From NCBI GenBank assembly GCA_947482665.1, contig CANKJK010000001.1:62001-126000 (forward strand): DNA of 64,000 nucleotides. The letters are read 5' to 3'. The number at the start of each line of letters is the position of its first letter. The stretch's first letter is position 1. Positions 2,872 through 16,219 of this stretch are shown here, in pieces. The DNA is from Acidobacteriota bacterium (lineage in GTDB: Bacteria; Acidobacteriota; Vicinamibacteria; Vicinamibacterales; UBA2999). The position numbers were made by a program, and so were the translations under genes. The notes below the pieces were generated by a model. The model did not search any database, was not told the origin of the DNA, and saw nothing but the letters and a program-made list of their open reading frames with translations.

Positions 2872-3384
2872 CTACTGCGCAGGAATCGCCAGCCCCAGGG
2901 GCAATGGGACGGTCTCTTCTACGGCCGCCCGGAGTCTTCCAACGCTCAGGACGGGGCAGGGTGCCGCGCGAACGATCTGTTCGGCGACGCTCCCCATCAG
3001 CAGGTGCGCCACACCGCTCCGGCCATGCGTGCCCATGATGATCAGGTCGCTGGCGGCTTCTGCCGCCATCTCAAGGATGGCGGGCACGGCCCGGCCCGGC
3101 CGGACGTGGATCCGGACATCCAGGCCTCGGCCCGAGAGGTCCCGTGCCTGGGACTCCAGCCTGTGACGGGCGCTGGAGGACAGGTCTTCAAGGACCATGC
3201 GGCGCTCCGGGCGCTCCAAGTCGCCCTCCCATGAGCCGAGCATCATCGGATCGTCGATGACGTGCAGGAGATCGACCCTGGCCCCGAACTGCTGAGCGAG
3301 GGTGGTGGCGCACGCGATGGCCGCCTCCGAGGGTTCGCTGAAGTCGACCGGTACAAGTACGCGAGTCACGGTGAATGTCGCCAT
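2872..3384 (-). CDS. universal stress protein (single Usp domain)
   Basis: The 170-residue product has one Usp fold. It opens with TRVLVPVDFS and carries the ATP-binding signature GTHGRSG with GS nine residues later. In-frame ATGs exist at 3399, 3390 and 3384. The last is preferred because GGGAG sits six bases upstream and homologous sequence starts there. A near-consensus sigma-54 promoter (3408-3422) lies just upstream. It belongs to the stress and redox cluster around the kinase/regulator pair. Confidence 0.88.
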   Translation of the reverse strand: MATFTVTRVLVPVDFSEPSEAAIACATTLAQQFGARVDLLHVIDDPMMLGSWEGDLERPERRMVLEDLSSSARHRLESQARDLSGRGLDVRIHVRPGRAVPAILEMAAEAASDLIIMGTHGRSGVAHLLMGSVAEQIVRAAPCPVLSVGRLRAAVEETVPLPLGLAIPAQ

Positions 3385-3407: not shown

Positions 3408-3422
3408 GCGAATGGCGTGCCA
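3408..3422 (-). promoter_or_regulatory. sigma-54-like promoter of usp
   Basis: On the minus strand the sequence reads TGGCACGCCATTCGC. The -24 block TGGCACG is perfect, the -12 block is TCGC instead of TTGC, and the GG-N10-GC spacing is exact. The expected transcript start is near 3396, ahead of the RBS and the ATG at 3384. Confidence 0.6.
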
Positions 3423-3498: not shown

Positions 3499-4896
3499 TT
3501 ATTCCATCGGTCCTGGCTGCGTGGGCAGATCAATGCTGGCGACTGTGCCGCCCTCAGGGGGGCACGCGACGGTCAGGGTCCCGCCGTGCAGTTCCACGGA
3601 ACGCTTTGCGATGGCCAGGCCGAGCCCGCCCCCGCGTGATTTCGTCGTAAAGAACGGTTCGAAGATGCGGTCACGAATCTCCGTGGGAATACCGGGTCCG
3701 GTGTCGGCCACCGTGACCCGCGCTCGGCCAGCGTCGGGATGGATCTGCACCTGCAGTGTCCCGTGACCTCCCATGGCCTGGGCCGCATTGATGAAGAGAT
3801 TCGAGAACGCGGCGCGGAGCATGCCCTGATCGGCCTGAATCGCCAGGGGCGCACCCTCGACCGTGCAGTCGACGCCCGCGCCAATCGGGTCTCGACGGAG
3901 CAGGGCCTGCGCTTCGCTGAGCACGCTGCGCAGGTCGAGAAGTCGCATCTGCGGGGGCTTGGGCTTCGAGAACTGGAGGAGGTCCGAGATGAGGTCGTTC
4001 AGCGCATCGGCGCGCTCGATGATTTCGTGCATGACCGCGGCGTCGGGGTCACCGGCGGGCCGGCGTCCCATGAGAATCTGCAGCGCGGCCTTGATGCCGG
4101 CCAGGGGATTCTTGACCTCGTGCGCCACCATGGCGGCCAGTTGTCCCACCCGTGCCAGGGCCTCCTGATTGCGGAGCCGTTCCTCGCCTGCCTTCCGCTC
4201 GGTGATGTCGCTTCGGATGGCGATGTACTGGTACGGATGACCCTTCGTGTCGAGGAAGGGGACGATCGTGGTATCCACCCAATAGAGGGACCCGTCCTTG
4301 GCCTTGTTCCGAATCTCACCGTGCCAGATCTGGCCTCGGCCAATGGTCTGCCAGAGTTCCTTCATGAAGGGCTTCGGATGCAGGCCTGAGTTGATCAGGC
4401 GGTGATCCTGCCCGATCAATTCCTCGCGCGAGAACTTCGAGATGCGACAGAACTTCTCGTTGACCTCGGTGATCCGACCCCTGACGTCCGTCGTGGCCAC
4501 AATGGCGGCTTCATCCAGGGCGTGCCGTAGTTCTTCGAGCCTCGTCACCTGTGAGGCTGAATGCGCTTCAATTCGCTTGAGGCGCACCATCAGCGCCGCG
4601 CTCAACCAGAACAAGAGAACCACCAGGGGCTGGTTGATGAAGGCCGAAGGCGGTGGTGGCGTGGCACCCCGCGCTGCCGTGTCTGCCAGGACGAGGATTG
4701 TGCTGGCACCAGCGGCCACCACCGGGTAGCGCAGCGAGTCGACGCCGAGTCCCAGCAGGATCACCACGATGTAGGCGACCCCCACGTTGTAGTCGAGGGG
4801 CAGTCGAAGATCGATCAGGAAGATGACCGACGCGAGCACGACTCCCGCTCCGATGAAGTATCGGCTGCTGGATGAGGTTCCGGACGGGCGATCCAT
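3499..4896 (-). CDS. membrane PAS-domain sensor histidine kinase
   Basis: With the start at 4896 the product has 465 residues. Four hydrophobic segments occur at about 13-30, 36-52, 57-71 and 88-104. A PAS/PAC domain follows at about 125-240, then a HisKA domain with the phosphorylated His259 in AHEVKNPL. The HATPase domain has its N-box around Asn366/Asn370, G1 at 398-400 and G2 GGGLGLAI. It should autophosphorylate and pass phosphate to the divergently encoded NtrC-type regulator 145 bases away. The PAS domain resembles redox or ligand sensors, but no heme or flavin ligand can be assigned. An earlier ATG at 5022 would add 42 unrelated residues and run into the promoter of the regulator, so it was not used. 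Confidence 0.9.
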   Translation of the reverse strand: MDRPSGTSSSSRYFIGAGVVLASVIFLIDLRLPLDYNVGVAYIVVILLGLGVDSLRYPVVAAGASTILVLADTAARGATPPPPSAFINQPLVVLLFWLSAALMVRLKRIEAHSASQVTRLEELRHALDEAAIVATTDVRGRITEVNEKFCRISKFSREELIGQDHRLINSGLHPKPFMKELWQTIGRGQIWHGEIRNKAKDGSLYWVDTTIVPFLDTKGHPYQYIAIRSDITERKAGEERLRNQEALARVGQLAAMVAHEVKNPLAGIKAALQILMGRRPAGDPDAAVMHEIIERADALNDLISDLLQFSKPKPPQMRLLDLRSVLSEAQALLRRDPIGAGVDCTVEGAPLAIQADQGMLRAAFSNLFINAAQAMGGHGTLQVQIHPDAGRARVTVADTGPGIPTEIRDRIFEPFFTTKSRGGGLGLAIAKRSVELHGGTLTVACPPEGGTVASIDLPTQPGPME

Positions 4897-5041: not shown

Positions 5042-6406
5042 ATGGCCAACGCCACGGTACTGGTTGTTGATGACGAAGCGCTTGTTCGCTGGTCGCTGCG
5101 GGAGCGGCTGGTTCAGGATCACTTCACCGTACTCGAGGCCGGCACCGCAGCGGCGGCGCTCGAACAGGCCGGCGAGGCGGTCGACCTCATCCTGCTGGAC
5201 TACCGGCTTCCTGACTCCGACGGCCTCGTGGTGCTCCGGAAGGTGAAAGAGCTGTACCCCGACACGCTGGTCATCCTGATGACCGCGCATTCGACAGTGG
5301 AAAACGCGGTCGAGGCCATGAAGCTGGGTGCCTTTCACTACATCAACAAGCCCTTCAATGTGGACGAAGTGGCGCTGCTGGTGGAGAAGGCGCTTGAGAC
5401 CAGTCGTCTGCGCCGAGAGGTGAAGTCCCTACGGAGTTCGGCCGGGCGTGAGTTCAGCTTCGAGGCGATCGTGGGGACGTCGCCCAGCATGGAGTCCATC
5501 AAGGCACTGCTCCGGCGGGTGGCGGTCAGTCCGGCATCGACCGTACTGCTGACGGGAGAGACCGGCACCGGCAAGGACCTGGTGGCGAAGTCCATCCACT
5601 ACAACAGCGACCGCGCAACCCGTGCGTTCGTCAACATCACCTGTTCTGCGCTGCCCGAGCATCTCCTCGAGAGCGAGCTCTTCGGGCACGAACGTGGCGC
5701 CTTCACGGACGCGCGCCAGCAGAAGCGGGGGCTGTTCGAGATCGCCGATGGTGGCACGGTGTTCCTCGACGAGATCGGGGAGATGACGCCGGCCCTTCAG
5801 GCCAAACTGCTCCGTTTCCTTGAGGAGAAGACCTTCAAACGCGTCGGGGGACTTCAGGATATCCACGTGGACGTGCGGGTCATTGCCGCCACGCACCGCG
5901 ACCTGGAGGCGGGCGTCAAGGACGGGCGCTTCAGGGAAGATCTCTTCTATCGTCTGCAGGTGATGCCCATCCACCTCCCGCCGCTGCGCGAGCGCAAGGG
6001 CGATGTCTCGCTGCTCGCCAACTTCTATGTGGACTCGTTCAACCGTGAGTTCAAGAAGCGCGTCAAGGGCATCGCGCCCGAAGCGATGCAGATGCTGGAA
6101 AGCTACGGGTGGCCGGGAAACATCCGGGAGCTGAAGAACGCCGTCGAGCGAGCAATGCTGCTGGTGGAACACGAGTGGCTCAGGCCTGAGGATTTCACGA
6201 CGCTGACCAGGACCGTGGGTGCGCCCTCGCGTTTCCAGCTCCCTCCGGACGGAGTGAATCTCGAGGACGTGGAGCGGCAGCTGCTGGTGCAGGCGCTCGA
6301 GCGTGCCAACGGGAATCAGACGCACGCCGGCCAGATGCTCGGGATCAATCGCGACCAGGTTCGGTACCGCATCGAGAAGTTCGGGCTGCAGATCCCCCAG
6401 AAATAA
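5042..6406 (+). CDS. sigma-54-dependent response regulator, NtrC family
   Basis: The 454-residue product has a receiver domain (acidic pair 10-11, phospho-acceptor Asp53, Lys103), an AAA+ domain with Walker A GETGTGKD (172-179) and Walker B GTVFLDE, and a Fis-type helix-turn-helix at the C-terminus (about 411-452). Such proteins bind upstream enhancers and use ATP to open sigma-54 promoters. The sigma-54 contact loop reads GAFTDA at 219-224 rather than GAFTGA. The gene is divergent from the histidine kinase and is followed by a sigma-54 promoter at 6495. It is the obvious candidate activator for the sigma-54 promoters found up to 11507. The start at 5042 was chosen because the receiver domain begins there; in-frame sequence upstream is non-homologous. 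Confidence 0.93.
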   Translation: MANATVLVVDDEALVRWSLRERLVQDHFTVLEAGTAAAALEQAGEAVDLILLDYRLPDSDGLVVLRKVKELYPDTLVILMTAHSTVENAVEAMKLGAFHYINKPFNVDEVALLVEKALETSRLRREVKSLRSSAGREFSFEAIVGTSPSMESIKALLRRVAVSPASTVLLTGETGTGKDLVAKSIHYNSDRATRAFVNITCSALPEHLLESELFGHERGAFTDARQQKRGLFEIADGGTVFLDEIGEMTPALQAKLLRFLEEKTFKRVGGLQDIHVDVRVIAATHRDLEAGVKDGRFREDLFYRLQVMPIHLPPLRERKGDVSLLANFYVDSFNREFKKRVKGIAPEAMQMLESYGWPGNIRELKNAVERAMLLVEHEWLRPEDFTTLTRTVGAPSRFQLPPDGVNLEDVERQLLVQALERANGNQTHAGQMLGINRDQVRYRIEKFGLQIPQK

Positions 6407-6415
6407 GTCGGCGGC

Positions 6416-6431
6416 GTGGGGAAGTTCTCAC
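6416..6431. promoter_or_regulatory. possible enhancer (UAS) GGGAA element B
   Basis: GTGGGGAAGTTCTCAC is an imperfect inverted repeat with GTG/CAC ends, centred about 98 bases upstream of the transcript start predicted from the sigma-54 promoter at 6495. It lies just after the regulator stop codon. It is the most symmetric member of the element family. Confidence 0.4.
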
Positions 6432-6494
6432 GCCGTCAGCGCCCTGTGTGTGCTGCGGCCTCCGTTTTCTCCCGCCTCTTGTCGGATCCACCTC

Positions 6495-6510
6495 CGGCAC
6501 TCTTGTTGCG
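6495..6510 (+). promoter_or_regulatory. sigma-54 (-24/-12) promoter
   Basis: CGGCACTCTTGTTGCG matches GGCAC-N5-TTGC with exact GG-N10-GC spacing. The predicted start, about 12 bases after the -12 GC, is followed by a strong RBS (GCAGGAGG) and the ATG at 6538. Confidence 0.75.
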
Positions 6511-6537
6511 TTACATCTTGGCAGCAGGAGGTATCCG

Positions 6538-6822
6538 ATGAGACTCTCCAGGAACTTGGTGACCGCGCGTGACGGGTTTCCCTTTCCGCCGACTTTCCGC
6601 AACGCGGGGGATATGGTGCCGTGGGTGCCGGAGGCCGAGGGCGCTGGTCTTCACTTCCATCCCGCCGGATTGATGATGCCGCCGGTTCGGGTGCGAGCGG
6701 TTCGCCAGCGTGAGAGACAGATGCTGAACCTGCCGACGCCTCTCAAACGGGATCGAGGCGGTTCGAAGACAGCCATCGGCGAGGGCAGTGCTGGCCGCAA
6801 GGCCCACAAAGTGGCTGCCTGA
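6538..6822 (+). CDS. small unknown protein under a sigma-54 promoter
   Basis: A 94-residue product of unknown function. It has no signal peptide and no membrane segment. The N-terminal half is Pro/Phe-rich (FPFPPTFRNAGDMVPWVPE) and includes the segment HFHPAGLMMPPVRVRAVR; the C-terminal third is strongly basic. The start at 6538 is fixed by GCAGGAGG six bases upstream. The sigma-54 promoter immediately in front and the adjacent sigma-54 activator argue that it is a real, regulated gene. The next gene is convergent, so this is a single-gene transcript. No family was recognised. Confidence 0.65.
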   Translation: MRLSRNLVTARDGFPFPPTFRNAGDMVPWVPEAEGAGLHFHPAGLMMPPVRVRAVRQRERQMLNLPTPLKRDRGGSKTAIGEGSAGRKAHKVAA

Positions 6823-7913: not shown

Positions 7914-7928
7914 GCGAAGCTTGTGCCA
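7914..7928 (-). promoter_or_regulatory. sigma-54-like promoter of the DHOD-like gene
   Basis: On the minus strand TGGCACAAGCTTCGC has a perfect TGGCAC -24 block and TCGC at -12 with correct spacing. The transcript would start near 7902, just ahead of the RBS and the ATG at 7889. Confidence 0.55.
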
Positions 7929-7997: not shown

Positions 7998-8013
7998 GTG
8001 GGAAGTAATCCCC
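7998..8013. promoter_or_regulatory. possible enhancer (UAS) GGGAA element C
   Basis: GTGGGAAGTAATCCCC has GGGA and TCCC half-sites. It is centred about 86 bases upstream of the rightward sigma-54 start and about 103 upstream of the leftward one, so a single site could serve both divergent genes. A second GCGGGGAAACC half-site lies at 8026-8036. Confidence 0.4.
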
Positions 8014-8064
8014 GCCGCAGCCCAGCGGGGAAACCGTCTCTGGCGCATATTGATGCGCGAGACT

Positions 8065-8079
8065 TGGCAGTGCGATTGC
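8065..8079 (+). promoter_or_regulatory. sigma-54 promoter of usp-CBS operon
   Basis: TGGCAGTGCGATTGC has TGGCA at -24, TTGC at -12 and exact GG-N10-GC spacing. The RBS GGAGG (8093-8097) and the ATG at 8105 follow. Confidence 0.72.
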
Positions 8080-8104: not shown

Positions 8105-9001
8105 ATGACCACAATGCGACGCGTCCTGTGCCCGGTGGATTTCTCCGACGGTTGCCGGCACGCCGTTGACTTGGCTCTCGCTCTGGCGCGAGGTAGCGCG
8201 GGGCAGCTCCGGGCGGTACATGTGCTCCAGCCCGTTCCGGCGCTCGTGCCCTTTACCGACCCGCTCTCGCATCCGCCAGGGCTCTGGGCGCCGGAGGATG
8301 TGGAGGCAGTCCGTAAGGACGTCTTGAGGTTTGTCGCCGGAGAAGGCGCGGGGAGCGGGGTGCCGGTCGAGGCCGTGTGTCTTGAGGGCAATCCAGCGCG
8401 TGAGATTCTGCGCGATGCCGAAGCGGTGTCGACGGACCTCATCGTGATGGGCACGCACGGTCGAACGGGTTTCACCCGCCTCCTGTTGGGGTCGGTGACG
8501 GAGAAAGTGTTGCGTCACGCCCCGTGTCCGGTGCTGACCGTGCCCCCGAGGGCGCCTGACTCGGTCCCTGTTGATCAGCGCGCCTTCACGCACATCGTGG
8601 CAGCGGTGGACTTCTCCGACAGTTCGCAGGCCGCGCTGAAGGAGGCGCTGGCTCTCGCACGGCAATATCAGGCAGAGCTCACAGTCGTGCACGTCGTGGA
8701 ACCCGTGCCGACGTATGCCGATTCCGGAATTCCGGGACTCGATGCCGACATTGAGCGCGAGGCCGCTCATGGCTACCTCAAGGGACTCCTGGAACGCGTG
8801 GCGCCGGACTTTCCGGCCAAGCAGGTCGTGCTCATCGGTCACGCGGCCAAAGGCGTGCTCCAGGTGGCGGCGGGCGCCCACGCGGATCTCATTGTGGCAG
8901 GGGTGCACGGACGCAATGCGATGGATTTGATGTTCTTCGGGTCGACGGCCAACCGCCTGGTGCGCGAGGCGGCCTGCCCGGTACTGACAGTCAGGACCTA
9001 G
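8105..9001 (+). CDS. tandem universal stress protein
   Basis: The 298-residue product has two complete Usp folds. Both carry nucleotide-binding signatures: GTHGRTGFTRLLLGSV in the first half and GVHGRNAMDLMFFGST in the second. Unlike the protein at 2051, both halves therefore look able to bind ATP. The ATG at 8105 has GGAGG seven bases upstream; a TTG two codons earlier is less likely. It is followed nine bases later by a CBS-domain gene, forming an operon behind a sigma-54 promoter. Tandem Usp plus CBS proteins also occur together in the DosR hypoxia regulon of mycobacteria, which is a useful but distant parallel. Confidence 0.92.
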   Translation: MTTMRRVLCPVDFSDGCRHAVDLALALARGSAGQLRAVHVLQPVPALVPFTDPLSHPPGLWAPEDVEAVRKDVLRFVAGEGAGSGVPVEAVCLEGNPAREILRDAEAVSTDLIVMGTHGRTGFTRLLLGSVTEKVLRHAPCPVLTVPPRAPDSVPVDQRAFTHIVAAVDFSDSSQAALKEALALARQYQAELTVVHVVEPVPTYADSGIPGLDADIEREAAHGYLKGLLERVAPDFPAKQVVLIGHAAKGVLQVAAGAHADLIVAGVHGRNAMDLMFFGSTANRLVREAACPVLTVRT

Positions 9002-9010
9002 GAGGGTGAT

Positions 9011-9511
9011 ATGCGCGTGCATGAACTGATGAGTGCTCCGGTCATCAGCGTCAGGCCGGACGACACGGCGTCGGCTGCATGGAACCGGATGCAGGCGCAC
9101 TCGGTGCGGCATCTGGTGGTCTTTGACGACGAGCATGCCTTGGCGGGTGTCGTGTCGGCAGGAGACCTCGGCGGGCGCTTCGGATCAACGCTGCGTGACG
9201 CTCGCGTGGTGTCCGATGTGATGAGCCGTCACGTCGTGCAGGTGGCACCGGCGGCGACAGTGCGTGAGGCGGCCAACCTGATGCGTGGGAACTTGGTGGA
9301 ATGTCTCCCGGTGGTCGAGGCTGGCAAGGTCGTTGGCATTGTCACGAGCCTGGACCTTCTCGTGCTCCTCGGACATGGTGCGGAGAAGCCCGTGGCAGTG
9401 GCGCCGAGACCGGGCAGGCAGGACAAGCCGAAGCGCGCCGCCAAGAAGGCGCCCTCGCGAGGTCTGCGGACCTCTGGCGGCGGTTCACTGACGGCGACGA
9501 GGCGAGGATAG
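9011..9511 (+). CDS. two-CBS-domain protein
   Basis: The 166-residue product has a CBS pair, with repeats starting MRVHELMSAPVISVRPDD and VSDVMSRHVVQVAPAA, each ending in GVVSAGDL- or GIVTSLDL-type strands. The last 45 residues form a basic, low-complexity tail rich in Lys, Arg and Pro that could bind nucleic acid or be disordered. CBS pairs bind adenosine nucleotides and sense energy charge. TAGGAGG directly upstream gives a strong RBS. It is the second gene of the usp operon. Confidence 0.9.
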   Translation: MRVHELMSAPVISVRPDDTASAAWNRMQAHSVRHLVVFDDEHALAGVVSAGDLGGRFGSTLRDARVVSDVMSRHVVQVAPAATVREAANLMRGNLVECLPVVEAGKVVGIVTSLDLLVLLGHGAEKPVAVAPRPGRQDKPKRAAKKAPSRGLRTSGGGSLTATRRG

Positions 9512-9615: not shown

Positions 9616-9630
9616 TGGCATTTGAATTGC
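9616..9630 (+). promoter_or_regulatory. sigma-54 promoter of the cytochrome genes
   Basis: TGGCATTTGAATTGC has TGGCA at -24 and TTGC at -12 with exact spacing. It lies in the 185-base gap in front of the five-heme cytochrome gene and leaves a leader of roughly 55 bases. Confidence 0.75.
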
Positions 9631-9696
9631 GGACGAGTGAGGCGCGCACGTGTGCTGGGGCTTGGAGCTGACCACGGCCGCGCAGGGGGGTGAGTG

Positions 9697-10512
9697 ATGC
9701 GGAAGCGCGTTGTGATGGTCATGATGGCGGTGTTGATGGGTGCAGGTGCGACCGCCGCGATGGCACAGGGGAGTAAGTGCGCCGACTGCCACTTCGCCAA
9801 CCCGGACGCGCCGAGGCGTGGGCACATGAGCGACTGGGATCGCTCTGCGCATGGACGCCAGAACATTGGATGCGAGAAGTGTCATGGCGGCAACGCCACG
9901 AGCTTTGAGAAACTGGTGGCGCACAAGGGCATCCTCTCGCCAGGGGACCGCAAGAGTCCCGTCCATCGGGCTAACCTGCCGACCACCTGCGGGTCGTGTC
10001 ATGCGGGGCAGTTGATGGAGTTCCAGAAGACACGGCACTTCCAGTTGCTGAAGACTGACGATAAACGGGGGCCAACCTGTGCCACCTGTCACTCGGACGT
10101 GGGCGATACGCTGCTGTCCCCCAAGGCGCTGGAGTCGCAGTGCAATGCCTGCCACGGACCTGGCAAAGCCGCGCCAAGGCCGGAACGGGCCAAGAACGCC
10201 AGGGCCATGCTGGAGAGCGTGCGGGAAGCGCGGCAGTTGCTGAAGCAATCGCGGGACATGATCAAGCAGGTCAAGGACCCGCAGCGCAAGGCGAAGCTCA
10301 CGCAGGACGCCGAAATGGTGGCGCTGGAGCTGAAGTTTGCTGTGGAAGCCGGACACGCCTTTGTCTACGACGGTTTGCAGGACCGAGTGAGTCGCGCTCG
10401 AACGAAGCTCACCGCCCTGTTTGACAGCCTGACAAATCCCACCGCGGGCGGCGCCGTGAAGCCTGTGCGCGGTGTGCCCGCGCCCTGGACGGCGCAGGCG
10501 CAGCAGCGATAG
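9697..10512 (+). CDS. periplasmic five-heme cytochrome c
   Basis: The 271-residue product has a signal peptide ending near AMAQG and five CxxCH heme sites (CADCH, CEKCH, CGSCH, CATCH, CNACH), all within the first 155 or so residues. The C-terminal 110 residues carry no heme and are helical and charged, resembling a coiled coil. It should be a periplasmic electron carrier or reductase subunit. The ATG at 9697 is preferred; a GTG lies one codon earlier and a G-rich RBS upstream. It is the first gene after a sigma-54 promoter, and the maturation proteins for its hemes are encoded at 22304-29383. The fusion of a heme head to a long helical tail is not assigned to a named family. Confidence 0.85.
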   Translation: MRKRVVMVMMAVLMGAGATAAMAQGSKCADCHFANPDAPRRGHMSDWDRSAHGRQNIGCEKCHGGNATSFEKLVAHKGILSPGDRKSPVHRANLPTTCGSCHAGQLMEFQKTRHFQLLKTDDKRGPTCATCHSDVGDTLLSPKALESQCNACHGPGKAAPRPERAKNARAMLESVREARQLLKQSRDMIKQVKDPQRKAKLTQDAEMVALELKFAVEAGHAFVYDGLQDRVSRARTKLTALFDSLTNPTAGGAVKPVRGVPAPWTAQAQQR

Positions 10513-10533
10513 TTGAGGTCAAACCCGTAAGGG

Positions 10534-10561
10534 GACCGGGGCGTGGCAACATGCCCCGGTC
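10534..10561 (+). promoter_or_regulatory. strong intergenic RNA hairpin
   Basis: A perfect nine-base stem (GACCGGGGC with GCCCCGGTC) closes a ten-base loop between the two cytochrome genes. No U-run follows, so it is not a classical terminator. It could be a processing or stability element that sets the ratio of the two cytochromes. Confidence 0.5.
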
Positions 10562-10581
10562 GCACGTTCCGGAGGTGCCAG

Positions 10582-10986
10582 ATGCGAGCAGGAAGATGCG
10601 GTGCGCTGGCGGGGGCGGTTCTGATGGCGGCGACGTGCGCCGGTGCGCAGACATCCGCACTCAAGTCCATCATGCGCGAGAAGCTGTCGCACTCCCAGCA
10701 GTTACTGGACGCGGTCGTGACCAGTCGGTGGGCTCCGCTTGAAGAGCACGCCCTGGCGCTGAAGAAGGTGACCGAGCGCCCCGCGTGGATGGTGTTGCAG
10801 TCTTCAGAGTACGCGCGTGACACCACCCGGTTCGTTCGGGCCCTTGATGATCTGCTGGATGCGGCCCGCCGGAAGGATCTGGAACAGACGCCGACGGCGT
10901 ATAACGCGCTCACGCTCTCCTGTGTGCAGTGTCATCGCCATGTGGCTCGGATGCGCCTCGCCGGCGCGGTGGCCGCCCGGCCCTGA
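10582..10986 (+). CDS. cytochrome c'-like monoheme protein
   Basis: The 134-residue secreted protein has a signal peptide ending near CAGAQ and a single CVQCH heme site close to the C-terminus, after a mostly helical body. A C-terminal CxxCH behind helices is the layout of cytochrome c' and cytochrome c556 four-helix bundles. Those proteins bind NO or CO, or act as electron carriers. The start at 10582 was chosen for GGAGGT six bases upstream and because the signal peptide begins there. It is probably co-transcribed with the five-heme cytochrome. Confidence 0.75.
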   Translation: MRAGRCGALAGAVLMAATCAGAQTSALKSIMREKLSHSQQLLDAVVTSRWAPLEEHALALKKVTERPAWMVLQSSEYARDTTRFVRALDDLLDAARRKDLEQTPTAYNALTLSCVQCHRHVARMRLAGAVAARP

Positions 10987-11009
10987 GACGGTGCGTTCAG
11001 CGCCGGCGG

Positions 11010-11222
11010 TCAACGTAGGCGATGGACGGGAACAGGCTGAAGCTGGAACTGGTCTTCGACGTCGGCTTCCTCCGGAAAGAAGATCGCCAGGCACGGATCG
11101 CAGATTGTGTGCGTCTGCGGATGCTCTGCCAGCCCTGTCGGATGAGCGTCACGCTGTCCAAGTGACGCACCACACCACGCACAGATGCGAGCCAGGCACG
11201 GTCGACTCTGTTGAGTGATCAT
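11010..11222 (-). CDS. small zinc-ribbon protein
   Basis: The 70-residue product carries two Cys pairs, CAWC and CDPC, spaced about 26 residues apart in the pattern ICAWCG...THTICDPC. This is a widespread small zinc-ribbon layout in Proteobacteria and Acidobacteria. Such proteins have no established function. It is convergent with the cytochrome c' gene, 23 bases away. No RBS is evident before the ATG at 11222. A sigma-54-like element (11236-11250) lies so close that the transcript would have almost no leader. Confidence 0.6.
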   Translation of the reverse strand: MITQQSRPCLARICAWCGASLGQRDAHPTGLAEHPQTHTICDPCLAIFFPEEADVEDQFQLQPVPVHRLR

Positions 11223-11235
11223 GCCGGGTGTTACA

Positions 11236-11250
11236 GCACGGCGTGTGCCA
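11236..11250 (-). promoter_or_regulatory. weak sigma-54-like element
   Basis: On the minus strand TGGCACACGCCGTGC has a perfect -24 TGGCAC, but the -12 block is GTGC. Spacing is exact. The predicted start would fall only about three bases before the ATG at 11222, which lowers confidence. Confidence 0.3.
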
Positions 11251-11385
11251 GCCCCGAGTGGTCCTCACGACGTCCCCTCTGTCCTATCTTGCCGCTTGCC
11301 GGCTCTTGCCACCGATAAGGCCGCTTCACCCGGCGCACCGAAACTGTCCGGTCGCCTTGCAGGAACGTCCTGTCATCCATTAGAG

Positions 11386-11400
11386 GCGGGGAATTTCCGC
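11386..11400. promoter_or_regulatory. possible enhancer (UAS) GGGAA element E
   Basis: GCGGGGAATTTCCGC is a near-perfect inverted repeat centred on AATT, about 126 bases upstream of the start predicted from the sigma-54 promoter at 11493. The gap from 11251 to 11385 shows nothing else recognisable. Confidence 0.42.
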
Positions 11401-11492
11401 GGCGTGCGGAGAACCTCATGGTTCAGGTAGGGGTGGGCTGAGGGTCATTGGCGTTTTCGCCGCCAGACACACTGACACCCTGTCGGCCGGGT

Positions 11493-11507
11493 TGGTCACG
11501 AGATTGC
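11493..11507 (+). promoter_or_regulatory. sigma-54 promoter of the DUF2892-tonB genes
   Basis: TGGTCACGAGATTGC has TGG and TTGC (then A) with exact GG-N10-GC spacing. AGGAGG and the ATG at 11532 follow. Confidence 0.65.
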
Positions 11508-11531
11508 ACTAGGGGCCGCCAGGAGGTTGCG

Positions 11532-11771
11532 ATGCAGTTCCTGCAATGGCCCAAGACGGTGCCCGGGCGGTTCGCTCGCGTCCTGCTGGGCGTGACCCTG
11601 CTCTGGATGGGTCATCGTGAACAGACGGTCAACGGGTTGCTGCTGATGATGCTGGGTCTGGTGCCGCTGTGCACCGCGCTCGCCAACATCTGCCTCTTGG
11701 ACGATGTGACCACCACGGTTGACGTCTACTTCCGGCCGCACCGGGAACACCTCCCGCGGCCGCGCACATAG
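11532..11771 (+). CDS. DUF2892-type small membrane protein
   Basis: The 79-residue product has two hydrophobic helices (about 13-30 and 35-52). The second contains GLVPLCTALANICLL, which matches the conserved GLVPLxTGLxxxCPLY block of the DUF2892 / YgaP-type membrane domain. In YgaP this domain anchors a rhodanese; here it stands alone. AGGAGG precedes the ATG at 11532. It is the first gene behind the promoter at 11493 and is followed nine bases later by the TonB gene. Confidence 0.75.
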   Translation: MQFLQWPKTVPGRFARVLLGVTLLWMGHREQTVNGLLLMMLGLVPLCTALANICLLDDVTTTVDVYFRPHREHLPRPRT

Positions 11772-11780
11772 GAGGGCGCC

Positions 11781-12542
11781 ATGTTTGAGGTGTATGTCAA
11801 CGGATTTCGCGGCACTCCACATCGGGAGTCTGTGCCGCTCGTCCTTTCATCCCTCGTGCATGGAGCCGGTCTGGCCGCACTCATAGTCGGGCCGCTGCTA
11901 TTTGCCACCAGCCAGGTGCCCGACGCGCCGTCCATAATGGCGTTTGTGGTGCCGAAGCCGGCGGCCGCGCCACCTCCGCCGCCCCCTCCTCCGGCGCCGG
12001 CCTCGGCACAGGCACAGGCGACGAAGCCCGTGGTCACCTCCAACCCAAACGCCGCGCCCATCGATGCGCCGGCCGAAATCACACCGGAGCCTCCGGCGCC
12101 TGCGGGCGCGGATGCCGGAATGCCGGGTGGCGTTGAGGGCGGTGTGGCTGGTGGCGTTCTGGGAGGAGTCGTGGGTGGGATTCCAACCGCCGCTCCGCCG
12201 CCCCCACCGCCCCCGCCGGCGCCACCTGCCCCTGTCGCGGCCAAGGGGCCAGTTCGCGTGGGGGGGGACCTTCAGACACCGGCGCTCCTGAAGCGGGTCG
12301 GCCCGGAATACCCGGAACTGGCCGTGCGAGCGCAACTGGAAGGCGTGGTGATTCTTGAGGCCATCGTGGATCAACAAGGGCGCGTGGAGGATGTGCAAGT
12401 GCTTCGCTCCATCCCCCTGCTGGACAATGCGGCCAAGGCGGCCGTGCGGCAATGGCAATACTCGCCACTACTGCTCAACGGAAAGGCAGAGCGTTTCATC
12501 GTGACGGTGACGGTCAGCTTTAAACTAAAGAGACAGAGTTGA
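11781..12542 (+). CDS. TonB-family energy transducer
   Basis: The 253-residue product has one N-terminal membrane helix (about 22-42). A long linker contains two runs of eight prolines flanking a Gly-Gly-Val repeat block (about 113-135). The C-terminal TonB domain (about 170-250) contains YPELAVRAQLEGVVIL and AVRQWQYSPLLLNG. It spans the periplasm to transmit proton-motive force to outer-membrane receptors. AGGAGG lies just upstream. Partner exbB/exbD genes are not in the window. Placement inside a cytochrome cluster behind a sigma-54 promoter suggests energised uptake that is needed when the cytochromes are made, for example of metals or heme; that is inference. Confidence 0.9.
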   Translation: MFEVYVNGFRGTPHRESVPLVLSSLVHGAGLAALIVGPLLFATSQVPDAPSIMAFVVPKPAAAPPPPPPPPAPASAQAQATKPVVTSNPNAAPIDAPAEITPEPPAPAGADAGMPGGVEGGVAGGVLGGVVGGIPTAAPPPPPPPPAPPAPVAAKGPVRVGGDLQTPALLKRVGPEYPELAVRAQLEGVVILEAIVDQQGRVEDVQVLRSIPLLDNAAKAAVRQWQYSPLLLNGKAERFIVTVTVSFKLKRQS

Positions 12543-12633
12543 TACTGTGTCCGTGCCTGCTGAAACACATGGCCGGGTGGTCGCAGCGTCATGGTGGCGC
12601 AACGTTGGCAGGCGGTCCTGAATGGGAGAGTTC

Positions 12634-12969
12634 ATGCGGAGAATCGTGATGAGTGGGGTGCTGGCCGGGGTGCTGGCCCTGGCGGTGAGTGCCGGAGCAG
12701 AGACGCCCGCCGAAAAAGGCGCGGCCGTGTTCGGCAGTCAGAAGTGTTCGATGTGCCATTCCGTCGCTGGAAAGGGAAATCCGAAGGGCGTGCTGGACGG
12801 CGTGGGTGGGAAGCTCAAGGCTGAAGAGATCCGTCAGTGGATTCTTGATGCGCCAGCGATGGCGGCCAAGACCGGCGCAGTGCGGAAGCCCGCCATGAAG
12901 TCCTACGCGTCGCTCGCCAAGGATGATGTCGAGGGTCTGGTTGCGTATCTCTCCACGCTCAAGAAGTAG
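12634..12969 (+). CDS. small class I cytochrome c
   Basis: The 111-residue secreted protein has a signal peptide ending near AGAET, a single CSMCH site, and the probable distal Met ligand in KPAMKSY near the C-terminus. This is the standard layout of diffusible class I cytochromes. GGGAG lies five bases before the ATG at 12634. It probably shuttles electrons in the periplasm between the cytochrome b/Rieske module downstream and the decaheme conduit next door. Only weak sigma-54-like matches lie upstream, so it may be read from the tonB transcript or from its own promoter. Confidence 0.88.
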   Translation: MRRIVMSGVLAGVLALAVSAGAETPAEKGAAVFGSQKCSMCHSVAGKGNPKGVLDGVGGKLKAEEIRQWILDAPAMAAKTGAVRKPAMKSYASLAKDDVEGLVAYLSTLKK

Positions 12970-12982
12970 TCGGGAGGCTGGT

Positions 12983-13912
12983 ATGCGGCGTGTTCTATGG
13001 GTGGTCGGCTCGGTTGCGCTGGTGCTCTTGGTTGCACATCCCGTAGCCGCGGGGGCGAGGCAGGCTGCGGCCCGCCCAGTGGCTGCGGCGGCGGTGGGCG
13101 CTGGGGATTTCGCAGGACAGGCGACCTGTCTGACCTGCCACGGAGAGAAGGACTACAAGGGCACACTGCACGGGATCTCGTCCCGTCCCGGCACTCCCGC
13201 GGCGACGCATGGATGCGAGAGCTGCCATGGCCCCGGGAAGGCGCACGCGGAATCCGGCGACGCCACCCTGATCAAGAATCCGCTCAAGCTGACACGCCAG
13301 CAGAGCAGCGAAATCTGCACGGCCTGTCATAAGCGGGGGACCCACGCGCTCTGGACTGGAAGCCCTCACGATCAGCGCAATGTCGGCTGTATCGGGTGCC
13401 ACAGCGTGCACACGCCCAAAGGTCCTGCGCAGATCAAGACGGCAAGCCAAAAGGAGCTGTGCGCCACCTGTCACAAGCCCGTGGTGAACCGGCTGCATCG
13501 CTTCAGTCACATGCCGGTGCGCGAAGGCAAGGTCGAGTGTTCGTCGTGTCACAACCCCCATGGGTCGACGAATACCGCGCTGCTCAAGGCCGGCACCACC
13601 GTGGATGAGTCCTGCACCAGCTGCCACGCCGAGAAGCGTGGACCGTACCTCTGGGAACATGCCCCGGTGGCCAATGCCTGTGTCACCTGTCATGACCCTC
13701 ATGGGTCGAACAATGAACGGATGCTGGTCTCGAAGGTGCCGTTCCTGTGTCAGCGGTGCCACGTGACCTCGCGGCATCCCCCGACCGCGTATGACGGATT
13801 CGTGCGCAACAACTCAACGAACGCCAACAAGATTATCGGGCGCGGCTGCGTGGTGTGCCACGCACAGATTCATGGGTCGAACGCGCCCTCGGGCAAGTCG
13901 TTCCTCAGGTAG
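12983..13912 (+). CDS. decaheme cytochrome c, MtrA/DmsE/PioA type
   Basis: The 309-residue product has a signal peptide and ten CxxCH sites in order: CLTCH, CESCH, CTACH, CIGCH, CATCH, CSSCH, CTSCH, CVTCH, CQRCH, CVVCH. Ten hemes in about 310 residues is the mark of MtrA, DmsE and PioA. The adjacent gene encodes the matching MtrB-type barrel, inside which MtrA-type wires sit. The ATG at 12983 has GGGAGG upstream. It is expected to pass electrons across the outer membrane, outward to metals or other acceptors, or inward from a donor. Direction cannot be read from sequence. Confidence 0.92.
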   Translation: MRRVLWVVGSVALVLLVAHPVAAGARQAAARPVAAAAVGAGDFAGQATCLTCHGEKDYKGTLHGISSRPGTPAATHGCESCHGPGKAHAESGDATLIKNPLKLTRQQSSEICTACHKRGTHALWTGSPHDQRNVGCIGCHSVHTPKGPAQIKTASQKELCATCHKPVVNRLHRFSHMPVREGKVECSSCHNPHGSTNTALLKAGTTVDESCTSCHAEKRGPYLWEHAPVANACVTCHDPHGSNNERMLVSKVPFLCQRCHVTSRHPPTAYDGFVRNNSTNANKIIGRGCVVCHAQIHGSNAPSGKSFLR

Positions 13913-13921
13913 GGGATACAC

Positions 13922-16219
13922 ATGCGGACGAACGTGCTGTGGATGGGCCTGGTCTCGGTGCTTTGCGCCGGAGGGCCAGTGTGGTCGCAGACGCCTCCTG
14001 CCGCGCCAGCGGCTGGGGCGGTGACCGGTGTCGTGGATGCTGGCGCGCGCGGGACCTCGGGGTCAGGTGACGAGGCTCGGTACGATCGCTATGGCGACCT
14101 GCGCACCGGCGTGTTCTCCCACGTGGTGTTCGGTCAGGCCGACGCCAGTCGCCTCTGGTCTTTTGGGGCGGACAACGTGGGCTATCGGAACCAGGAGTAC
14201 CGCTTTCGGTACGTAGGCGGTAACTCCTTCATCAAGGCGTCGTGGGACTCCACGCCGCTGAACTACAGCAACCTCACCTCGACACCGTGGGTGGAGCAGG
14301 CGCCGGATGTCTTTACGCTGGATTCGGCGGCGCGAGGGCTGGTCCAGAACAAGGCTCCTGGGATCGTAGGTGTGCCTTCGTCGGCGGCACAGTTGGCGAC
14401 TCCGTCGATCTTTCGTGGCCTGGCGACGCCCTTCGAGATGCGGTCCCGACGTGACACCGCATCGGCGTCAGTCCTGATGGATGCGACGCGCAACCTCGGT
14501 TGGACGGCGGCACTGACCACCACGCACAAGGGCGGGAACCAGCCGTACGGGGCCTCGTTCGCGTTCAATAACGCGAACGAACTGCCAATCACCGTCGACC
14601 ATCGGACCAACGACGTCTCGGCCGGGCTGGAATACACCCGCGAGCAGGGAATGATGCGACTGGGCTGGCAGGCATCCTGGTTTACCAACGCCGTTCACGA
14701 ATTGATCTGGGACAACCCGCTGCGGCAGACGGATACGACGCCGTTCGACGCCAGCGGGTACAGCAACGGCAACGGCCCGGCGCGCGGACGGATGGCGATG
14801 CCGCCCAGCAATCACATGTCTGCCGTCAGTGTCAGCGGCCTCTACAAGATGCCGGCGCACACCACGCTGAACGGGGTGGTGTCCTATACCGCCATGGGTC
14901 AGAATGACGCGCTGATTCCCTGGACGATCAACGACGCCATCGCGAATGCAGGAGTCTATGCCTCGTACCCCGGACTCGCGCGCCTGCCGCGTGCCACCGC
15001 CGAGGCTAGCGTGCATGGCGTCAATGGTCTGGTGACCCTGACGACGCGCCCGAACCGGGTGTTCGGAGTGACGACGCGGTACCGGTTCAATGATCACCGG
15101 AACCTGACGCCGGCGTTCGACGCGACGAATTACGTGCGCTTTGACGCCACGCCCTCTAACACCGGTGGGGTGACCGAACAGTTCGACATCCGCCAGAACA
15201 CCTTCGATACGACGGCCTCGATCAATCTGAAGAGCCGATCGACCGTGCGAGTCGGGTATACCTACGACGACTTCAATCGGACTGGCCGGGCATTCAGCGA
15301 TATGCACGACTTCACCGTGCGTGCCTCGCTGGACCACATGAGTACGTCATGGCTGACGGTGCGGCTGACGGCGGACCGCACGAGCCGAGTGGGATCAGGG
15401 TTCTCTGAGGCCTCGCTTGAGGACGGAGGTCTGCAGCCAGGGCTCCGTTTCTACGATGAGGCGGACCGTGACCGGAATCGTGGCACGGCGCTCGTGGTCG
15501 TCAGCCCGGTCTCCGCAGTCGAGCTGACCCTGAGCGCGACGGCAGGCAAGGACGTCTACAAGGGCGCGGGCCACGAGTTTGGTCTCCTGGATAACTCGAA
15601 CCGGTCCATCAACGCCGGCATCAGCTTCAGCCCGTCCGAGCGGGTCTCCCTGGGTATCACCGCTGGGCGCGAGGCGTTCAATTCGCTGCAGCGCTCGAGG
15701 AATGCCAACCCGCCCGGTTCGGACTATGGCAGCTGGACCGACCCGAACCGGACATGGGACCTGACGAACGATGAACACGTGAACGTCGTGGACCTCTTTC
15801 TCGACCTGACCCGTCTGTTCAAGCATCTGGACCTACGCGCCGACTACACCTACAGCGACTCGGACAACGCGTTTGTGCACAGTGGCCCGCGGATTGATGC
15901 GCTGTCGACCAACGCGATTCTCACGGCGGGTGACGCGCGCCCATGCGCGGCAGGTCTGACATCGTGCTTCGAGGCGTTGCCTCCCGTGACGAACGCCTGG
16001 CACCGGCTCTCGCTGGATGCGCGCCATATGTTCACCGCTCGGGTGGGCCTTGGTCTGGGGTATTGGTACGAGCGATTTGATGTGCAGGACTTCGCGCGGG
16101 TGGACCTGCCTGGGACGACGCTGCCGCGGATTGACTATCTCGGCGAGGTCAACACAGGCTACGGCAACCGGCCCTATCGGGGGAGCACGGTGTTCACGCG
16201 GCTGCTCTATCGCTTCTGA
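13922..16219 (+). CDS. MtrB/PioB-family outer-membrane beta-barrel
   Basis: The 765-residue product has a signal peptide ending near VWSQ and, after residue 60, alternating amphipathic strands rich in Tyr, Arg and Asp, ending in RLLYRF, whose terminal Phe fits an outer-membrane barrel. Early segments such as WSFGADNVGYRNQEYRF match the MtrB/PioB decaheme-associated family. It should form the sheath around the decaheme cytochrome encoded nine bases upstream. The short CxxC motif near the N-terminus of Shewanella MtrB is not visible, and no MtrC-like surface cytochrome follows. Compared with PioB from photoferrotrophs, the direction of electron flow remains open. Confidence 0.9.
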   Translation: MRTNVLWMGLVSVLCAGGPVWSQTPPAAPAAGAVTGVVDAGARGTSGSGDEARYDRYGDLRTGVFSHVVFGQADASRLWSFGADNVGYRNQEYRFRYVGGNSFIKASWDSTPLNYSNLTSTPWVEQAPDVFTLDSAARGLVQNKAPGIVGVPSSAAQLATPSIFRGLATPFEMRSRRDTASASVLMDATRNLGWTAALTTTHKGGNQPYGASFAFNNANELPITVDHRTNDVSAGLEYTREQGMMRLGWQASWFTNAVHELIWDNPLRQTDTTPFDASGYSNGNGPARGRMAMPPSNHMSAVSVSGLYKMPAHTTLNGVVSYTAMGQNDALIPWTINDAIANAGVYASYPGLARLPRATAEASVHGVNGLVTLTTRPNRVFGVTTRYRFNDHRNLTPAFDATNYVRFDATPSNTGGVTEQFDIRQNTFDTTASINLKSRSTVRVGYTYDDFNRTGRAFSDMHDFTVRASLDHMSTSWLTVRLTADRTSRVGSGFSEASLEDGGLQPGLRFYDEADRDRNRGTALVVVSPVSAVELTLSATAGKDVYKGAGHEFGLLDNSNRSINAGISFSPSERVSLGITAGREAFNSLQRSRNANPPGSDYGSWTDPNRTWDLTNDEHVNVVDLFLDLTRLFKHLDLRADYTYSDSDNAFVHSGPRIDALSTNAILTAGDARPCAAGLTSCFEALPPVTNAWHRLSLDARHMFTARVGLGLGYWYERFDVQDFARVDLPGTTLPRIDYLGEVNTGYGNRPYRGSTVFTRLLYRF

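Follow-up and report, generated by a model that had tools for sequence, protein, structure and literature searches.

A 94-codon ORF located behind a sigma-54 activator gene in the window, the stretch of 64,000 nucleotides analysed here, is probably the remnant of a gene for a small heat-shock protein (Hsp20) of the class with a long N-terminal arm. The gene would have belonged to a sigma-54 stress regulon and would have lost its alpha-crystallin domain. We favour this reading because an ORF related to it is found at the same position in a second genome, G029, behind a 16.3-bit sigma-54 site, because that relative is a truncated Hsp20, and because genes with similar sites cluster around the regulator. 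We infer Hsp20 descent of the small gene, its activation by the neighbouring regulator and its loss of function. A decaying relic is most likely, and a functional arm-only peptide is less so.

The ORF (6538-6822, + strand) starts with an ATG codon, 131 bases after the stop codon of a gene coding for an NtrC-type response regulator with receiver, sigma-54 AAA+ and Fis HTH domains (5042-6406, +). A gene for a PAS histidine kinase (3499-4896, -) diverges from the latter. A ribosome-binding site of the AGGAGG type, GCAGGAGG (6524-6531, +), ends approximately 7 bases before the ATG. The ORF has no strand-mate before the convergent gene of a DHODH-like protein (NF005741; 6900-7889, -). Both the 94-residue ORF with a strong ribosome-binding site behind a sigma-54 activator gene and its status as the sole gene of its transcript, as proposed in an initial sequence-only reading, were borne out. 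Based on codon usage, the correct frame has the best coding score of the six, and this score is lower than those of 98.5% of equal-sized slices from the genes of the window; the coding signal is real, though weak. A single-sequence AlphaFold model showed a disordered protein (pLDDT 55), which, like the weak coding signal, is consistent with decay. Searches of Pfam and NCBIfam with the protein yielded no match.

Small RNAs adjoining sigma-54 activators are known in other systems, and the locus might similarly produce a small RNA from its sigma-54 promoter, in which case the ORF would be incidental. Nevertheless, the region has no match in Rfam and no unusual RNA fold (z-score of -0.06), and on these results we rejected a small RNA as an alternative. 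The similarity at the protein level between the window ORF and its G029 relative also argues against this possibility, which we consider very improbable.

The small gene is preceded by a -24/-12 promoter-like site, cCGGCAC-TCTT-GTTGCg (6495-6510, +). Its GG-N10-GC spacing is correct, its -24 element is at position -43 from the ATG, and it scores 10.9 bits with the hand-made, approximate weight matrix on which all promoter calls rest. By itself this site is weak evidence, because about 10 sites scoring at least 10.9 bits are expected by chance in the GC-rich window of 64 kb, where sites as strong are no commoner than in first-order Markov shuffles. Its placement upstream of a start codon has a p value of ~0.009 per 130 bp. 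The sigma-54 promoter initially described was confirmed as a site, although on its own it is near chance in the window. We looked for a sigma-70 site for the small gene and found none, and sigma-54 control appears likely from these sequence features. Just past the stop codon of the regulator gene lies an inverted repeat, CGGCGTG-N10-CACGCCG (6412-6435, +), perfect over 7 bp with a 10-bp spacer, which is probably the near-palindromic element noticed earlier. It could be a regulator site or a terminator stem, and it does not recur at the sigma-54 promoters of the other genes in the window. An upstream activator motif common to these promoters was rejected, as the inverted repeats differ from promoter to promoter.

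Around the small gene, 7 of the 15 gene starts tested have sigma-54 sites at p <= ~0.011, where ~0.2 would be expected. In addition to the small gene, they are those of a Usp gene (2872-3384, -; site at 3422, -), the DHODH-like gene (site at 7928, -), a tandem Usp gene (8105-9001, +; site at 8065, +), a multihaem cytochrome gene (9694-10512, +; site at 9616, +), a second cytochrome gene (start at 12637, +) and a gene coding for a 70-residue CxxC protein without a Pfam family (11010-11222, -), whose site is strong (14.4 bits). In five of the seven, the -24 element is found 38 to 43 bases before the start. The site of the CxxC protein gene is only 28 bases before the ORF start, which may be wrong. 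A CBS-domain gene (9011-9511) comes next after the tandem Usp gene. Judging from its gene content, the cluster around the two-component pair looks like a sigma-54 stress regulon, in which the small gene would be included by its close upstream -24/-12 site with GG-N10-GC spacing. In genomes of the same family, the regulator and the kinase are grouped with various Usp, CBS, cytochrome and Hsp20 genes. Many of these genomes have two copies of the response regulator flanking the kinase (L122, L123, L124, L125, L126, L128 and L130). Since six other genes within ~10 kb carry similar sites, the small protein is not the only or dedicated output of the regulator, and the dedicated control initially ascribed to it is not supported.

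The DHODH-like and tandem Usp genes have divergent sigma-54 sites, and the two inverted repeats found between these sites, TCCCCGC-N9-GCGGGGA and GCGCAT-N4-ATGCGC (8009-8058), represent candidate shared regulator sites. Adjoining the putative stress regulon, genes for multihaem cytochromes are found together with that of an outer-membrane porin, MtrB/PioB (PF11854, E 1e-78), at positions 9694-16219 of the window, with sigma-54-like sites preceding two of the cytochromes. A role of this gene cluster in extracellular electron transfer or respiration is likely.

G029 has the closest regulator, with 86% identity to that of the window, and the best G029 match to the window protein lies 281 bases behind this orthologous regulator. 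It is a 78-residue ORF that follows the strong sigma-54 site mentioned above (pairwise E of 3e-7). The two proteins share the motif RDxGFPFxxxFRxxxxxPWxPExE, and their common core, RD-GFPF..TFR....PW.PE.E.A, corresponds to positions 6565-6645 (+) of the window. In the 28 codons of this core, there are 9, 9 and 17 differences at codon positions 1, 2 and 3, respectively, and the larger number of changes at third positions is a weak sign of constraint at the protein level. The C-terminal ends of the two ORFs differ. With the window protein, no match was obtained at E 0.001 in 43 genomes of the family, and no third member was detected when 193 genomes of the class were searched with a profile, or in scans of GTDB contigs, in which the close-relative and profile scans recovered G029 alone. 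The genus of the window organism is represented by one genome in the set. The regulator of G037 likewise has 86% identity to that of the window; in this genome, the DHODH-like gene directly follows the regulator gene and there is no small ORF. In total, the small ORF is found behind two of the orthologous regulators examined (~25 genomes). The search for homologues that always follow the same regulator, as suggested in the sequence-only reading, thus revealed a partly conserved frame behind the orthologous regulator in G029, but this was the only occurrence.

These distributions bear on the proposal that the gene codes for an anti-activator, an adaptor or a small effector. Its position behind the regulator gene in two genomes, with a sigma-54-like site, might suggest a dedicated small regulator of the two-component system. 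Nevertheless, an anti-activator or adaptor would be expected to co-occur constantly with the regulator, and most orthologous regulators have no such gene behind them, including that of G037 at equal distance. Together with the six other genes that share the candidate control and the truncated-Hsp20 identity of the G029 relative, these observations make such a function highly unlikely, and nothing in our analyses points to it.

The identity of the G029 relative was established as follows. The C-terminal part of this ORF, PWAPEVESAERDHHGFVTLDLPG, resembles the start of an alpha-crystallin domain, and the genomes of the family harbour Hsp20s of a long-arm class. Using a profile of six long-arm Hsp20s, the G029 ORF scored 16.0 bits, compared with at most 6.2 bits for 2000 shuffles, and it aligned up to the LPG..EE sequence inside the crystallin domain. 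BLASTP comparisons with single long-arm Hsp20s gave an E value of 1e-6 in a tiny database, and in an open search of 193 genomes with the G029 protein, Hsp20s were the top two and at least 10 of ~47 matches. A PDB search with this protein yielded no match. Because of its profile score and the Hsp20 matches in the open search, the G029 ORF is, by its sequence, an Hsp20 cut off just inside the alpha-crystallin domain. The description of the window protein as belonging to no known family therefore needs revision. The motif W-x-P-x-[IV]-[DE] that ends the arm in the long-arm class of Hsp20/alpha-crystallin proteins (PF00011) of this Acidobacteria family is recognizable in the G029 relative. In contrast with PF00011 proteins, the alpha-crystallin domain is missing from the window protein and is cut just after its start in the G029 relative. 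A sigma-54-like promoter, as found before the small gene, is typical of the long-arm class, with an upstream site at p <=0.02 in 10 of the 12 intact genes. No intact long-arm Hsp20 was found in the window genome (G000) or in G029; the Hsp20s there, including the one left in the window genome, belong to other classes. As the G029 relative is a truncated Hsp20 of a class whose intact genes in sister genomes mostly have sigma-54-like sites, and neither genome has an intact member, our reading of the window gene is that of a relic of an Hsp20 arm. In G029, the truncated gene overlaps a nosL-like gene by ATGA (L032 3056-4215), and thus the sigma-54 promoter left behind by the chaperone gene probably now drives a NosL-cytochrome operon.

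Direct comparisons of the window protein with Hsp20s gave no significant match in Pfam or in profile tests. No Pfam match to the alpha-crystallin domain was obtained, and no remnant of it was detected in six frames. With a profile of the arms including the G029 relative, the window protein ranked about fourth among 2001 sequences (p ~0.002), and with a profile of arm and tail that also included this relative, approximately 1% of the shuffles matched its score. It was not singled out by an arm and tail profile without the crystallin domain. We also compared the window protein with the C-terminal tails of Hsp20s, for which a motif of the hydrophobic-P-hydrophobic type is expected. Its last 32 residues (6724-6819, +) tentatively resemble the last 32 of one intact Hsp20 (L091) in a C-anchored alignment, with an ungapped score of 36, compared with 18 for the best non-Hsp20 tail among 2123 ORFs; this likeness did not reach significance when gaps were allowed or profiles were used. 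It is only suggestive, because it was first noticed by eye and tested afterwards, the fit is poorer for the other Hsp20s, and the p value was ~0.1 in a joint test with gaps. The putative homology of the window protein with the arms of Hsp20s of the same clade is thus transitive, through the G029 relative. The lack of a direct significant match would be expected if the gene coded for an unrelated, lineage-specific small protein, with the likeness to Hsp20 arms being confined to the G029 gene or convergent. However, the synteny, the promoter and the core shared with a gene of clear Hsp20 origin make this rather unlikely.

Other features also count against a relic. The open frame, promoter and ribosome-binding site are kept in two lineages, whereas their loss would tend to be expected in a dead gene. 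Furthermore, the -24 element is 43 to 50 bases from the ATG in the window gene and its G029 relative, compared with 65 to 109 bases in most intact long-arm Hsp20 genes. In small heat-shock proteins, clients bind to the N-terminal arm, and so an arm without the rest of the protein could have a function, as a stress-induced disordered mini-chaperone or as a modulator of the remaining Hsp20. The conservation of the frame and its signals in two genera and the pattern of codon differences in the core are in favour of a functional arm. Against it are the small family of two members, their different C-terminal ends, the weak coding score and the fact that the sole remaining Hsp20 of the window genome is of another class. 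We consider a functional arm unlikely. It is slightly less likely still that an Hsp20 devoid of its alpha-crystallin domain survives as a disordered stress peptide that consists of the arm alone and is induced through sigma-54.

In the relic reading that we favour, the ancestral long-arm Hsp20 gene would have been a member of a sigma-54 stress regulon under the control of the adjacent kinase and regulator. The alpha-crystallin domain would then have disappeared, leaving a portion of the arm together with the promoter and the ribosome-binding site. The divergent PAS kinase would phosphorylate the regulator, which would activate the sigma-54 holoenzyme at several nearby promoters. Because, in this proposal, the promoter outlived the loss of the protein core, the small gene would probably still be transcribed alongside those for the Usps, the DHODH-like protein and the cytochromes. 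Its product may be a peptide of ~10 kDa that is for the most part disordered.

We found no sigma-54 Hsp20/Usp regulon described for Acidobacteria in the literature searched. In mycobacteria, the DosR dormancy regulon places Hsp20, Usps and a CBS-domain protein under two-component control, and DosR is a LuxR-type regulator that is not known to use sigma-54. The window is similar in its candidate two-component control of Hsp20, Usp and CBS genes but differs by the candidate use of sigma-54. The low-oxygen stress clusters of Pseudomonas putida are similar in content, with Hsp20, universal stress proteins and respiratory genes, and they have been attributed to the Fnr-type oxygen-related regulators FnrB and Anr (PMC7801951). 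They are under Crp/Fnr control, whereas candidate sigma-54 sites and an NtrC-type response regulator are found in the window. An apparent orphan with its own promoter becomes a traceable case of probable domain loss. Our analyses also expose a candidate sigma-54 stress regulon of Usp, Hsp20, CBS, DHODH-like and cytochrome genes around one two-component pair that has been maintained throughout a family of Acidobacteria.
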